Below are positions 4,048 through 50,298 of a stretch of DNA of 64,000 nucleotides, one piece after another (the first letter of the stretch is position 1; every line of letters starts with the position of its first letter). The stretch lies in contig CALMUP010000009.1 of NCBI GenBank assembly GCA_937872895.1, positions 124,001 through 188,000 on the forward strand, given 5' to 3'. Both the position numbers and the translations under genes were made by a program. Under the pieces are notes generated by a model. It was given only the letters and a program-made list of their open reading frames with translations, did not search any database and was not told the origin of the DNA. The stretch comes from an uncultured Verrucomicrobiota bacterium (lineage in GTDB: Bacteria; Verrucomicrobiota; Kiritimatiellia; CAIVKH01).

Positions 4048-4071
4048 GGTGTACGAGTAGGCGTACGAGTA
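4048..4071. repeat. Left hexamer array of four-helix-bundle unit 1
   Basis: Four consecutive 6-nt units on the plus strand: GGTGTA, CGAGTA, GGCGTA, CGAGTA. The array ends 12 nt from the stop codon of the adjacent minus-strand four-helix-bundle gene. It is the inverted partner of the array at 4857-4880, where the complement reads CGTTTA, CGAGTA, GGTGTA, CGAGTA in the same register. Together they frame the gene as imperfect 24-nt inverted repeats. Confidence 0.85.
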
Positions 4072-4083
4072 AGGTTTCGTGTT

Positions 4084-4845
4084 CTATATATCCTTCAGCT
4101 TTGTCTCCCATGCTACCAGCATACGCACAATATCGGCGAGCTGCTTCTTGCCGTCGATCATGGCTTGCTTGCTCCGAATCTGCCGTATGGCGTGAATATC
4201 AAGCGTTGCTGCCGCCTGTAACGCGGCGGTTCGGGCGTGGCCAATGAAGCGACAGCGATCCTTTGACGAAAACTTGCCGTTACCCTCAGCAATGTTTAGG
4301 GCTACCCCGGTCGATGACCGATCCAGAGCGGACTGTGTTGCATGAGGAATGTTGTCATTATGGGATAACCGGCTACACCAGGCAACGAATCCCAAGGCTT
4401 TTCTGTAGACGTCGAGTTTTTCGTGGTCAAACCAAACCCGCATGCCATCCGGCACTGCGACCATGTAGGCGGGGCGTTCCTCGCGCAACGCACGGTCAGT
4501 AGACTTTCGAAAGCCGATCAACATGGCTACTAACATCGCGAGGCGCTCCTTGCCAGCCTGAGTGGTTTCTTCTTGAAGGTGCCCCTGCATGCCGAGTACG
4601 TCGAGGCATGCAGCACATTCCAGCGATGATCCATAAGCGGTATCGATAAACTGACGCCGATCACTCATCGATCGTTTTCCGCTGGCTTGCGCGATGTTCA
4701 CGGGAACGCTGGCTGAAGCCCGGTGTAAATGATCGCAGGCGGCCACCTTGGTTGTTAACACCCGAGCTGTCTCTTCGTGCCATACCACGAACGCAATCGC
4801 TGCTTGGTACACTCTCAGGTCTTCATGATCAAAAGCCGATTTCAT
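4084..4845 (-). CDS. Tandem (two-domain) S23-type four-helix-bundle protein
   Basis: The 253 residues contain two copies of the four-helix-bundle domain of 23S-rRNA-intervening-sequence (S23) proteins, offset by 134 residues. Copy 1 starts 'FDHEDLRVYQ' (5-14) with 'VNIAQASGK' (49-57); copy 2 starts 'FDHEKLDVYRKA' (139-150) with 'LNIAEGNGK' (183-191). Members are usually single-domain and about 120 residues, so this is a tandem fusion or duplication. The family also includes Avd of diversity-generating retroelements, but no reverse transcriptase is present. Base composition is visibly less GC-rich than in its neighbours, suggesting transfer. Inverted hexamer arrays lie 12 nt beyond the stop and 11 nt before the start. 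The molecular function of stand-alone members is unknown. Confidence 0.88.
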   Translation of the reverse strand: MKSAFDHEDLRVYQAAIAFVVWHEETARVLTTKVAACDHLHRASASVPVNIAQASGKRSMSDRRQFIDTAYGSSLECAACLDVLGMQGHLQEETTQAGKERLAMLVAMLIGFRKSTDRALREERPAYMVAVPDGMRVWFDHEKLDVYRKALGFVAWCSRLSHNDNIPHATQSALDRSSTGVALNIAEGNGKFSSKDRCRFIGHARTAALQAAATLDIHAIRQIRSKQAMIDGKKQLADIVRMLVAWETKLKDI

Positions 4846-4856
4846 CCATGATTCCG

Positions 4857-4880
4857 TACTCGTACACCTACTCGTAAACG
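4857..4880. repeat. Right hexamer array of four-helix-bundle unit 1
   Basis: Plus-strand units TACTCG, TACACC, TACTCG, TAAACG. Their complement repeats the order of the left array, so this is its inverted copy. It lies 11 nt upstream of the four-helix-bundle start codon and would be in the 5' leader of its mRNA, able to pair with the left array transcribed after the stop codon. Confidence 0.85.
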
Positions 4881-46868: not shown

Positions 46869-47999
46869 CTAGGGCAGGAACTTGCCTTTCTTGATCTTCT
46901 CCGGCAGGTATTTTTCCAGGACGTAATTCAGGCCATGTTTCGCAAACGCCTGCTGCTCGATGCGCACGCCCATCTTCAGCATCTGCTCCAGCGCCTGCTG
47001 CCACTCCTTGTGGTGCTGGATGAACGGATCGTTCTTCAGCGCATCCTTCGCGCGCTTGATGTCCGCCTCCTCCAGCGGGTGGGTCGCATCCTCGAGGCCA
47101 TAGTCGATGATGTCCTGCGGGGTCACCCCGAGGTAATGCACCTGCGGCACGCAGAAGTACCGGTTGATGTGCGCGGCCTGGCCGGATCCGACCTTCAGGG
47201 TCCGGTAGATGTTGCAGTAGCCGTAGGGATCACCGTCGGTGAAGGCCAGCACCGGGAGCTTCTGGTCGTCGGCGAGGCGGCGGATGAACCGGCGGCAGGC
47301 CCGCGTCGGCACCCCGCTCATCGAGATCAGGATGCAGTTGGCCTTCTCGAAATAGCGGTGGTGGACCAGGCGCTGGAACAGCGACGCGGTCTCGACGGCG
47401 AGGATGAACTTCGCCTTCGAGGCGAACCGCAGGTGCTCGACCCGCGACGGGATGCTCCACGCGCCGCTGCCCAGCTTCCCGCACTCGATCTTGATGTCCT
47501 TGCCGTTCGACGGATCGATGTCCAGCACGGTCAGCGGCCCGGCCACGTCGCCCCCGCGTTCCTCGGGGATGTAGCCGAGCTGCTCGCGGTTGATGCCCAG
47601 CATCGCCTCGATGTCGTCCAGCAGCGTGTCGCTCTCCGGCTGCTCGTCGAACCGGCACTCGCCCCAGCTCTTGCTGTTGTAGTAGATCTCGCGCTTGCCC
47701 GCGATGTCGTCCTTGTCCAGCAGGTCGTTCTTCGTCGTGGCGAGCAGGCGCATCGACTGCGCGAACGTCTTCACCGTGTTGTACGACAGGGTGCGCGTCG
47801 CCGTCTTGTTCAGGATCTCGAAATGCCCGCGCTTCGTGTCGTACTTGACATTGGCCAGCGAGCGGATCGGGAACTTCATCGAGGGCTTCTTGTGCTTCCT
47901 CGTGATGTCCAGGTGGATCTCCTTCGCGACCTCGACAATACGGCGCGAAGCGGCCTGCTTGGAAACGACTTGCGGGGCTTGGTCTTTCGGTGTGCTCAT
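46869..47999 (-). CDS. top6A: DNA topoisomerase VI subunit A (Spo11-like)
   Basis: 376 residues. The catalytic winged-helix domain has the paired tyrosines of 'GKREIYYNSKSWGE' (Tyr106/107) that cut DNA through a 5'-phosphotyrosine. The Toprim domain has Glu203 in 'LAVETASL' and Asp255/Asp257 in 'FTDGDPYGY' for Mg2+. Type IIB topoisomerases are mainly archaeal and plant enzymes and occur only in scattered bacteria. It forms an A2B2 enzyme with the B subunit encoded upstream; the order is B, four-helix bundle, A on the same strand. No gyrase is seen here, so its share of the topological work is unknown. Confidence 0.93.
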   Translation of the reverse strand: MSTPKDQAPQVVSKQAASRRIVEVAKEIHLDITRKHKKPSMKFPIRSLANVKYDTKRGHFEILNKTATRTLSYNTVKTFAQSMRLLATTKNDLLDKDDIAGKREIYYNSKSWGECRFDEQPESDTLLDDIEAMLGINREQLGYIPEERGGDVAGPLTVLDIDPSNGKDIKIECGKLGSGAWSIPSRVEHLRFASKAKFILAVETASLFQRLVHHRYFEKANCILISMSGVPTRACRRFIRRLADDQKLPVLAFTDGDPYGYCNIYRTLKVGSGQAAHINRYFCVPQVHYLGVTPQDIIDYGLEDATHPLEEADIKRAKDALKNDPFIQHHKEWQQALEQMLKMGVRIEQQAFAKHGLNYVLEKYLPEKIKKGKFLP

Positions 48000-48050
48000 G
48001 AATCGTTCCTGTTCTATGCTCGAATGCCAATCTTCATCGGAGCACTATTC

Positions 48051-48098
48051 CTAATCCTAATCCTAATCATAATCTTAATCCTAATCGCACGCTTAATC
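48051..48098. repeat. Left hexamer array of four-helix-bundle unit 2
   Basis: Eight in-register 6-nt units on the plus strand: CTAATC three times, ATAATC, TTAATC, CTAATC, GCACGC, TTAATC. The last unit contains the stop codon of the four-helix-bundle gene (TAA on the minus strand). It is the inverted partner of the array at 48531-48560 and starts 51 nt from the topoisomerase A start codon. Confidence 0.92.
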
Positions 48099-48527
48099 AC
48101 CGCGGGGTGTGGTTTCGTATTCGGCGTGCTCTTCGTGCAAACGGTACCCCGAGTTGTTTTTTATCAATCCGACCAGGGTACTGATGATGCCAGCGATGAT
48201 TTCCTTGCCGTGCATCAATTGATCCGATGACAAAAGTTTCTTGATGTTGAGCACATCGAGCGCTGGGGCGCACTCCAACGCTGATCCCCGGGCAATGTCA
48301 AAATAGTGGCATCGATCCTTGCCCGTATACTTGCCATTTCCTTCGGCGATATTCAGCGGAATCGATGTTGAAGCTCGGTCAAGCTGGTCTTTGACAGAAA
48401 GTCTTGATGGTATCGTTTCCCAGAAAGGTTCAAGCCATCCGACAAGTTCTAGGCTTAGTTGATACGAGCGGAGTTTTTCGTGGTCGAGCATTCGGTGTTG
48501 TGGTGTCATGGATCGCGTGGTGTCCAT
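48093..48527 (-). CDS. S23-type four-helix-bundle protein, inserted between topoisomerase VI subunit genes
   Basis: 144 residues if started at 48527; ATGs at 48509 and 48491 also fit, and the family usually begins 'M(F/L)DHEKLR', favouring 48491. The conserved 'LNIAEGNGKYTGKDRCHYFD' matches the second domain of the protein at 4084-4845. It has the helix-bundle length of the single-domain S23/IVS proteins. GC content is lower than in the topoisomerase genes. It splits the topoisomerase VI B-A pair and is tightly framed by inverted hexamer arrays, one overlapping the stop codon. Function of the protein is unknown; a nucleic-acid-binding role is likely from the basic bundle surfaces of relatives. 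Confidence 0.9.
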   Translation of the reverse strand: MDTTRSMTPQHRMLDHEKLRSYQLSLELVGWLEPFWETIPSRLSVKDQLDRASTSIPLNIAEGNGKYTGKDRCHYFDIARGSALECAPALDVLNIKKLLSSDQLMHGKEIIAGIISTLVGLIKNNSGYRLHEEHAEYETTPRGD

Positions 48528-48530
48528 CTG

Positions 48531-48560
48531 GATTAGGATTAGGAATATGATTAGGATTAC
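48531..48560. repeat. Right hexamer array of four-helix-bundle unit 2
   Basis: Five in-register units: GATTAG, GATTAG, GAATAT, GATTAG, GATTAC. This is the inverted counterpart of the CTAATC array at 48051. It lies just upstream of the four-helix-bundle gene, in the leader of its mRNA, where the transcript would read CTAATC units that can pair with the GATTAG units transcribed at the end. Confidence 0.92.
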
Positions 48561-48575
48561 GAGCGTTGCCGGATT

Positions 48576-48605
48576 ATGTGCGTCCTTTGCGCCTTTGCGT
48601 TGAAG
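48576..48605. repeat. Dispersed 'GCAAAGGCGCAAAGGACGC'-type motif
   Basis: The plus strand reads GCGTCCTTTGCGCCTTTGCG just after the topoisomerase B stop. The motif class (runs of CTTTGCG) commonly forms inverted repeats in intergenic DNA; no second arm is present here, suggesting that it was separated by the insertion of the four-helix-bundle unit or decayed. Confidence 0.35.
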
Positions 48606-48612
48606 TCACAAC

Positions 48613-50298
48613 TCATACTTCCAGATGCGTCTTCTCCAGCATCTTCTTCAGGTCGCTTTCGATCTTCGCCTTGTCCTTCTCCGGCAGGGAAAGGATGTCC
48701 TTGAGGCCGGTGGCGAGGTGGGGGATGTACTTCTCGATGTAGCCGCGTTTCCGTTCGGCCTCGGCCTCGCGCTTGCGGCGGCTGATGTTGATGGACAGGC
48801 GGCGTCCGCACTCCTGCAGGGCGAGGGTGAGCTCCTGGATGATCTCCGGGTAGTTGGCGATCGCATCCTTGCTCTCGCTGGTGAAGGGCACCCACACGCT
48901 GGCCATGTGCACCGATACCACGACCGGACCGAGCGGCAACGATCCTTTGGGCTGGGCGAGCCCGTAGGCCTTCCAGTTCACCCCGACCATCGCCTTGGTG
49001 ATGGCGCACGCCCCGCCCATGTAGAGCAAGGGCACCCGGTTGGCGAACCGCAGCAGGCGCACCGGGTTCTCGTTGTTCAGCTCCTCGTCGGACTGCGGTT
49101 TCGCGTAGGCCATGCCGACCTCGATCTGGAACGGATTGCCGCGGTACACCGTCGGGTCCCGCGTGACCGAGGTGTAGAAGTCGGCATCGATCTCCTTCTT
49201 CAGGCCCGCCAGGATCTCCTCCTCGCCGATCGGGGCCAGGCAGTCGGTCGGCGGGCGCATCAGCTTGGTCTGCTGGATGGTCTTGTACACCGCCTCGATC
49301 TCGCCGGGGCCCAGCTTGTCCGGCCGCGCCTTCGGATCCACCTTCGCCGCCACACAGATGTCCAGCGCGGTCTGCTGGCTGATGCGCGAGAAGTCCGAGG
49401 CCAGCGCCGAGCGCAGTGTGCGGCTTTCCGTGTCCTTCAGCATCTGCATCAACAGGCCCAACTCGACTCCGTGAGGGTGGGGCATGATCTCCACCGCAGG
49501 CGGCGGCAGCTTCTTCACCGCGCGATGGAACGACTGGCGGATCGAATCCGATGGCGCCTCGCCCTCGGCCTCCCCCTTGGCCGGCTTCTTCAGGGTCACC
49601 GCGTAATGCAGCGACAGGTGCGGATTCACGATCGCGCACTGCTTGAGGAACTCGTCCACGGAAAGTTTGCCGCGCACGTAGGCGGCCTCCATCTCGATCG
49701 CCACCGAGGTCCCGTGCTTGTAGCTGACCGGATCGCCCGGCTTTCCATCCGCGGTCGCGGACGGAAACACCGGCAGCCAATCCACGCTGACATCGCTGAG
49801 GATGGTCGGCTTGTTCTGCCGGGTGTCGATCTGCACGCTGATCTGGTGGGCGGCGGCGCTGCCCTTGGTGCGCGAGCGGATTACCGTCGCGCTGCCGGTG
49901 GTCAGTTGCCCGTACATGCCGGCCGCGCTGATGCCGATGCCCTGCTGCCCGCGCGACATGCGCAGGCGGTGGAACTTGGAGCCGTAGAGCAGCTTCGCGA
50001 AGATCTTCGGGATCTGCGCCTTCACGATGCCCGGACCGTTGTCGGCCACCGTCACCCGGAACCGGTTGTCGCCGGTCTGCTCCAGCTCGACCATGATCTC
50101 GGGCAGGATGCCCGCCTCCTCGCAGGCGTCGAGCGAGTTGTCCACCGCCTCCTTCACCGCGGTCATCAGGGCGCGGCGCGGACTGTCGAAGCCGAGGAGG
50201 TGGCGGTTCTTGAGGAAAAATTCGGATACGGAAATATCCCGCTGCCGGCGGGCCATGCTTTCGGCGGTTTCTCCCGCCGCGGACGTACGTTTTGCCAT
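48613..50298 (-). CDS. top6B: DNA topoisomerase VI subunit B (GHKL ATPase)
   Basis: 561 residues. The GHKL ATP-binding site has '[15 protein letters not shown]' (N-box, about 49-63), 'VADNGPGI' (G1) and '[16 protein letters not shown]' (G2, ATP lid). The helix-two-turn-helix and transducer domains follow, with the conserved switch Lys in '[14 protein letters not shown]'/'GVNWKAYGL' regions. ATP binding dimerises the B subunits and gates strand passage by the A subunits. The C-terminal '[20 protein letters not shown]' region is typical. It is the upstream gene of the pair. Confidence 0.93.

Follow-up and report, generated by a model that had tools for sequence, protein, structure and literature searches.

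A four-helix-bundle gene framed by inverted hexamer arrays in a Kiritimatiellia genome, a probable member of a dispersed mobile element family

Inverted hexamer arrays frame an fhb gene inside a topoisomerase VI operon

We analyzed a 64,000-nucleotide stretch of the genome of an uncultured Verrucomicrobiota bacterium of the class Kiritimatiellia (contig CALMUP010000009.1, positions 124,001 to 188,000; the whole stretch is hereafter called the window). In this window, a small gene for a four-helix-bundle protein (fhb) is framed by two inverted tandem arrays of a 6-nt unit, and very probably represents one copy of a mobile element family. The features concerned are as follows (window coordinates; G and L numbers used below are our handles for genomes and loci).

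48045..48562, no strand: whole element (left array, fhb gene and right array), GC content 0.477 versus 0.646 in the window
48045..48098, plus strand: left terminal array (CTAATC)n of about nine degenerate units, with the fhb stop codon inside the last
48093..48527, minus strand: fhb gene, 144-amino-acid four-helix-bundle protein (S23 / 23S_rRNA_IVP; PF05635, TIGR02436)
48530..48562, plus strand: right terminal array (GGATTA)n, reverse complement of the left array, detected with tandem repeats finder (TRF)
48613..50298, minus strand: topoisomerase VI subunit B (top6B), upstream host gene in the operon, outside the element (NCBIfam NF003218, TIGR01052)
46869..47999, minus strand: topoisomerase VI subunit A (top6A), downstream host gene in the operon, outside the element (PF21180, PF04406)
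4050..4878, minus strand: second copy of the family, a two-domain fhb open frame (domains at 4114-4422 and 4516-4824)

TRF placed the left array at 48045-48086 (period 6, unit CTAATC, score 63), with degenerate units reaching 48098, and the right array (unit GGATTA) from 48530 to 48559 or 48562. The two arms were inverted relative to each other and aligned over 32 bp with 3 mismatches, the variant units standing mostly in matching order. No other array of period 5-9 in the window reached a score of 12. Their tandem scores were 26.0 (left) and 14.5 (right), and the maximum in 40 dinucleotide shuffles of the window was 13.0 (period 6-8). The right array alone barely beats chance; the pair is far beyond it. 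Further, the stop codon of fhb (TTA, 48093-48095, minus strand) falls within a unit TTAATC, and the PF05635 open reading frame (ORF) is the only gene of the element. A first-pass annotation of the sequence had described paired inverted 6-nt arrays around a single four-helix-bundle ORF, a unit containing the stop codon and a lower GC content of the block, and TRF, the shuffles, the PF05635 match and the base composition bore out each of these.

The same annotation regarded the second window copy as identical in design and its hexamer as unrelated. That copy is flanked by TACGAG/TACTCG arrays (approximately 4050-4074 and 4855-4878; arm alignment score 22), so the inverted 6-nt arrays are indeed common to both, but its ORF has two domains; the proteins of the two copies are approximately 39% identical. 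The hexamers proved to be related, since TACTCG and TAATCG are mixed inside single arrays of a relative (G013).

Directly beyond the right array, a short period-9 repeat, tgcgtcctttgcgcctttgcg, was observed at 48577-48602. The corresponding junction of a relative (L137) contains GCAAAGGCGCAAAG repeats that resemble it.

The fhb protein

The protein matched PF05635 (E 5.7e-18, 65.5 bits; curated cut-off 33.8) and TIGR02436 (E 5.3e-17, 62 bits; curated cut-off 24). Its AlphaFold model was a four-helix bundle (pLDDT 89.9), for which the top fold matches in the PDB were 2gsc and 2rld, with Avd scoring lower. A Xanthomonas member of the family is reported to form a homopentamer (PMC4990558, which cites Lin et al. 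2006), and the family was labelled functionally uncharacterised as late as 2024 (PMC11270868).

The design recurs across the genome, the class and other phyla

In the genome containing the window (3.87 Mb), we found eight PF05635 domains over seven loci, all of which have inverted short arrays (six clear, one weak). Their units are as follows.

GGGTACAA (8 nt)
GGGTGTC/GGGTTTC (7 nt)
GGTTGAT (7 nt)
TACGAG (6 nt), the two-domain window copy
CTAATC (6 nt), the element studied here
TTGAACG-like (7 nt), located between two genes identified by eye as pheS and pheT
GGAAGAC-type (L001), array noticed by eye, arm score at background

In the class, PF05635 was present in 52 of 58 relatives, with a maximum of 18 copies. 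We aligned the upstream flank of each gene to the reverse complement of its downstream flank, using flanks of different loci as the null. The median arm score of 99 class loci was 23, whereas the null had a mean of 13.0, a 99th percentile of 21 and a maximum of 24; 63% of the class loci exceeded the 99th percentile. So did 47% of 76 usable loci from other groups (Bacteroidota, Acidobacteriota, Geobacter relatives, Gammaproteobacteria, Clostridia, the candidate phyla radiation (CPR), Planctomycetota, Verrucomicrobiota and an archaeon). Arrays beside fhb were also seen in Luteimonas (L394) and Dokdonella (L398).

Thus, an element family with a conserved array design, as proposed in the first-pass annotation, is found at all seven loci of the genome (one of them weakly), at most of the 99 class loci and in many phyla. 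The further proposal that period 6 is conserved while the sequence is free held in part. Arrays are conserved, but units in the class are mainly heptamers and period 6 is a minority; the sequence is free only between distant elements, being inherited within an fhb lineage (see below).

Arrays come and go together with the gene

On cyanobacterial plasmids, fhb genes lie between conjugation, CRISPR-Cas, integrase and other operon genes, and most are flanked by arrays such as GGGAACA, GGGAGTA, GGGTGTA and GGTGACA. Related plasmids (89-97% identity) contain empty sites without the gene and without the arrays; the array moves along with the gene. At the clearest site (97% identity), the empty sequence AAAAAGTAATTAACAAAT corresponds to AAAAAGTAAT-element-GTAATTAACAAAT in the occupied plasmid, with a possible 5-bp duplication, GTAAT. 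At another, the upstream gene receives a new stop codon from the insert, which lies just within its 3' end. Two plasmids (L445, L448) have arrays without the gene at fhb junctions. Two others (L440, L453) carry fhb elements inside CRISPR-Cas operons, of type I-D (cas6/cas4) and type III-B (cas10/cmr3). 23S_rRNA_IVP is shown in a figure of CRISPR-linked proteins (PMC10910872), perhaps because its arrays resemble CRISPR arrays.

At the top6B-top6A junction, a sister species of the window's genus has 125 bp with a decayed scar, including the fragment TTCGATCACGAAAAACTG near the fhb start. Other relatives have either empty junctions (14-50 bp) or gene-less hairpins. The hairpins of G040 (unit GTCATTG) and G013 (GTCAGTT) consist of the unit of fhb elements elsewhere in the same genomes (L076 and L099, respectively). 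In one genome (G003, L128), approximately 714 bp of other sequence occupies this junction in place of an fhb element.

Mobility, which the first-pass annotation had suggested, is supported by presence and absence at near-identical plasmid sites and by the scar at the orthologous junction. Arrays conserved at this locus in all relatives, which would have argued against mobility, were looked for and not found, the sister species having the decayed scar only. As for the element ends and target-site duplication, for which a check had been proposed, one clean 5-bp case (GTAAT) was obtained and a general duplication was not established. Insertion into pre-existing arrays was rejected because the clean empty sites hold no array. 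Phage carriage was rejected as well: an fhb query had no match in 50,697 phage records, and exact short peptides of the window protein matched no viral contig.

The array unit is inherited with the protein lineage

In a comparison of 81 loci, the similarity between units was approximately 6 of 35, the background level, below 50% protein identity and rose to 10.8, 16.1 and 20.8 at 50-60%, 60-70% and above 70% identity, respectively. The rise was limited to the forward orientation (reverse, approximately 4.5), and the array period was equal in all pairs of loci above 70% identity. Comparison of flanks indicated that pairs with similar units occupy different sites, except for three orthologous sets. 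The array unit is thus inherited with the fhb lineage, orientation included, across different sites. The Mantel test of unit against protein similarity gave a weak overall correlation (r 0.058; 19 of 500 permutations as high); the signal is confined to proteins above approximately 50% identity. Where the site is orthologous, a change of unit between species affects both arms (GGAAGTTT versus GGCTGATT; TTTAGGC versus TTGAGGC).

Gene-less hairpins carry the unit of the resident fhb

We surveyed approximately 2.0 Mb from five genomes for gene-less arrays of period 6-8. Among 61 arrays, 26 matched an fhb unit of their own genome (permuted mean 10.9, maximum 20, P<=0.0002). Gene-less copies are often near-perfect stem-loops of approximately 80-120 nt, and the order of variant units was somewhat more alike between arms of one element than between elements (0.70 versus 0.55, n=10). 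Gene-less hairpins bear the unit of the fhb of their own genome.

We also counted pattern matches, which overlap within an array, in whole genomes. TAATCS, the pattern of the studied element, gave 722 matches in G056, 148 in G048, 85 in the genome of the window, 57 in G004 and 48 in G032; most genomes that have no close relative of the window fhb gave 0-1. Over 58 genomes, TAATCS arrays correlated with window-type fhb (rho 0.61; partial 0.48 with another fhb type removed; cross partial 0.07), and a similar, weaker association was seen between TKTCGGG arrays and the fhb type to which they belong (partial 0.31); these values were computed without phylogenetic correction. A scrambled control, TTAACS, never exceeded 3 matches in 57 genomes and reached 293 in G009. 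The fhb element of G009 (L025) has the unit TTAACC, so that the control is a real unit there and is an unplanned replicate, not a clean negative.

Two observations stand apart. G056 and G024 had TAATCS counts (722 and 647) far above those of other genomes, and the fhb of G024 is only moderately related to that of the window. Further, a short contig of the window's genome (G000:C37:5378-6182, L422) has GGGTGTC, CTAATC and TACGAG-type arrays clustered within 1 kb, that is, several units of the genome's fhb elements side by side.

A proposed mechanism and its alternatives

The explanation that we favor, with a probability of about 0.6, is that inverted tandem arrays around one fhb gene make up a dispersed mobile element, of which the block is an autonomous copy, and that the gene-less short stem-loops with the shared unit are the non-autonomous population of that genome, with fhb recognising its own unit. 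Own-unit binding is suggested because units are inherited with the protein and are shared by gene-less copies, and action of fhb on its own unit is, judged from sequence comparison, probable. The protein, probably a pentameric ring as in its solved relatives, would recognise the unit as DNA, most likely in the form of a hairpin laid bare in replication. Host replication or repair, let in by fhb, would then copy the element or hairpin to a new place. The architecture, the joint presence or absence of gene and array, the inheritance of the unit and its specific link to gene-less copies are observed; we infer the binding, the pentamer of the window protein and the copying chemistry, and the copying of a DNA hairpin is a tentative part of the scheme. 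Surviving copies are found mainly in operon junctions beside gene ends, where fhb would be read from the host operon. The arms may be kept matched by copying of one arm from the other within the hairpin, and the number of units may be altered by slippage.

Several points weigh against this explanation. The predicted isoelectric point of the window protein is 6.06 (median 6.56), near neutral and atypical of a nucleic-acid binder, and a protein that is not basic argues against simple electrostatic binding. No enzyme was found inside the element, PF05635 being its only gene, and profile matching revealed no transposase there, including no RAYT (a tyrosine transposase of the HUH type). To our knowledge, no enzyme is known in the fhb family. 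Target duplication was 5 bp (GTAAT) at one clean site and 3 bp (ATG) or none at others. Approximately 37% of the class loci and 53% of those in other groups did not exceed the 99% level of the null, and the correlations across genomes are uncorrected for phylogeny. Some genomes also break the link between unit and protein. TAATC arrays are absent from G029 and G019 despite their moderately related fhb, whereas G013, whose fhb is only weakly related, has 42 TAATC matches; in G003, G015, G019 and G025, no intact cognate gene accompanies the TKTCGGG arrays. Genomes are incomplete, however, and units drift.

The alternative that survives best, which we nevertheless consider unlikely, is an RNA element similar to the intervening sequences (IVS) of 23S rRNA. 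Within the transcript, the arrays would form a stem that is cut by RNase III or a comparable enzyme, and spread would be RNA-borne, perhaps using a reverse transcriptase in trans with fhb as an Avd-like RNA-binding helper. The Coxiella 23S rRNA IVS has an S23 ORF, inverted-repeat ends and heptamers and is excised by RNase III (PMC4990558), and Avd of diversity-generating retroelements shares the fold. In at least 81 of 89 loci, the fhb gene is read in the same direction as both of its neighbours (strands in several GC-rich flanks were assigned by reading proteins by eye; L010 and L068 were unassigned), which fits an RNA step or dependence on host transcription. Antisense copies, however, occur on plasmids (L438, L457, L458) and in the class (L070, L117), so codirectionality is not strict. 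Mismatches between arms showed no excess of G.U-compatible changes (226 versus 261, P 0.12), and selection for RNA pairing of the arms is not supported. Nor is a resident reverse transcriptase, as RVT_1 was not found in genomes rich in fhb: G022 (18 copies), G019 (15), G055 (13) and G057 (12). The lack of a G.U excess and of RVT_1 in several of the fhb-richest genomes are the reasons why we favor DNA over RNA as the recognised form.

A second alternative, which we regard as improbable, holds that fhb and the hairpins are kept by the host as regulators of the transcript (terminator, stability or translation) with little mobility now, the relatedness of units reflecting old spread and vertical descent. 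Copies do lie in operon junctions, in the direction of the genes; they form strong stem-loops, and orthologous copies are retained across species with both arms changing together. Against this, copies at different sites have lineage and unit in common, presence and absence occurs at up to 97% identity, matching junctions contain decayed scars and gene-less derivatives, and the arms bear no sign of selection for RNA pairing. That arrays and gene are unrelated, with fhb lying by chance in repeat-rich intergenic DNA or inserted into pre-existing arrays of common heptamers, has a very small chance and is already disfavoured: although many bacterial genomes contain an excess of heptameric repeats (PMC4692102) and some arrays have no fhb, arms match far better within than between elements, the unit goes with the lineage and orientation of fhb, gene-less arrays share the unit of the resident fhb and clean empty sites have no array.

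We hold a wider reading at slightly below even odds. S23/fhb proteins would be sequence-specific trans-acting factors of pan-prokaryotic small mobile elements without a known transposition enzyme, each fhb lineage reading its own 6-8 nt word; the heptamers of Xanthomonas, cyanobacteria, Beggiatoaceae and others would be gene-less populations, and the 23S rRNA IVS would be copies stranded in rRNA. This would assign a role to an orphan protein family that is widespread and would explain where dispersed heptameric repeats come from; no paper found in the accessible open-licence literature connects these two puzzles. The prediction is that a small protein reads a word of 6-8 nt specific to its lineage and that DNA moves with no classical transposase involved. 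As words and proteins have diversified in parallel in thousands of genomes, a recognition code could be derived by comparison and tested at the bench.

Comparison with known systems

The heptamer arrays of Xanthomonas, Nostoc and Beggiatoaceae, including the cyanobacterial short tandemly repeated repetitive (STRR) sequences, resemble the gene-less copies in being dispersed intergenic 7-nt arrays, many of them inverted pairs. X. campestris has 186 GGGAATC arrays with 70 inverted pairs (PMC4692102), and Beggiatoaceae have 169 TAACTGA sets with a mechanism that was not evident (PMC4679880). Unlike the arrays studied here, no link to fhb is reported in the accessible portions of these two papers, and we found no publication making that link in the accessible open-licence literature, preprints excluded. 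X. campestris does encode an fhb protein (2gsc).

Avd of diversity-generating retroelements is similar in fold (4dwl, 8ub7; TM score by target 0.75-0.82), but the identity is 11-14% and the fhb element has no reverse transcriptase; the single RVT_1 of the window's genome sits on another contig (C19). Miniature inverted-repeat transposable elements (MITEs) and their parent insertion sequences likewise comprise gene-less derivatives sharing terminal inverted repeats. In contrast to those parents, the autonomous fhb copy has no transposase, and target duplication was clean at one site only.

The REPIN-RAYT system (repetitive extragenic palindromes and their associated tyrosine transposase) also combines a trans-acting gene and inverted short repeats with many gene-less intergenic palindromes of matching sequence in the same genome (PMC3116915, PMC2817692). 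However, the fhb gene encodes a four-helix bundle instead of a tyrosine (HUH) transposase, and the ends of the element are formed by tandem arrays with a unit of 6-8 nt.

The 23S rRNA IVS of Coxiella and Leptospira have the same protein family and inverted-repeat ends around an ORF, and in Coxiella tandem heptamers lie beside the S23 ORF (PMC4990558). The element described here differs in lying between protein genes, those of topoisomerase VI, outside rRNA, and fhb elements differ further in having lineage-specific terminal units and gene-less hairpin populations. The fhb copies may be the same kind of element as the 23S rRNA IVS, outside rRNA.
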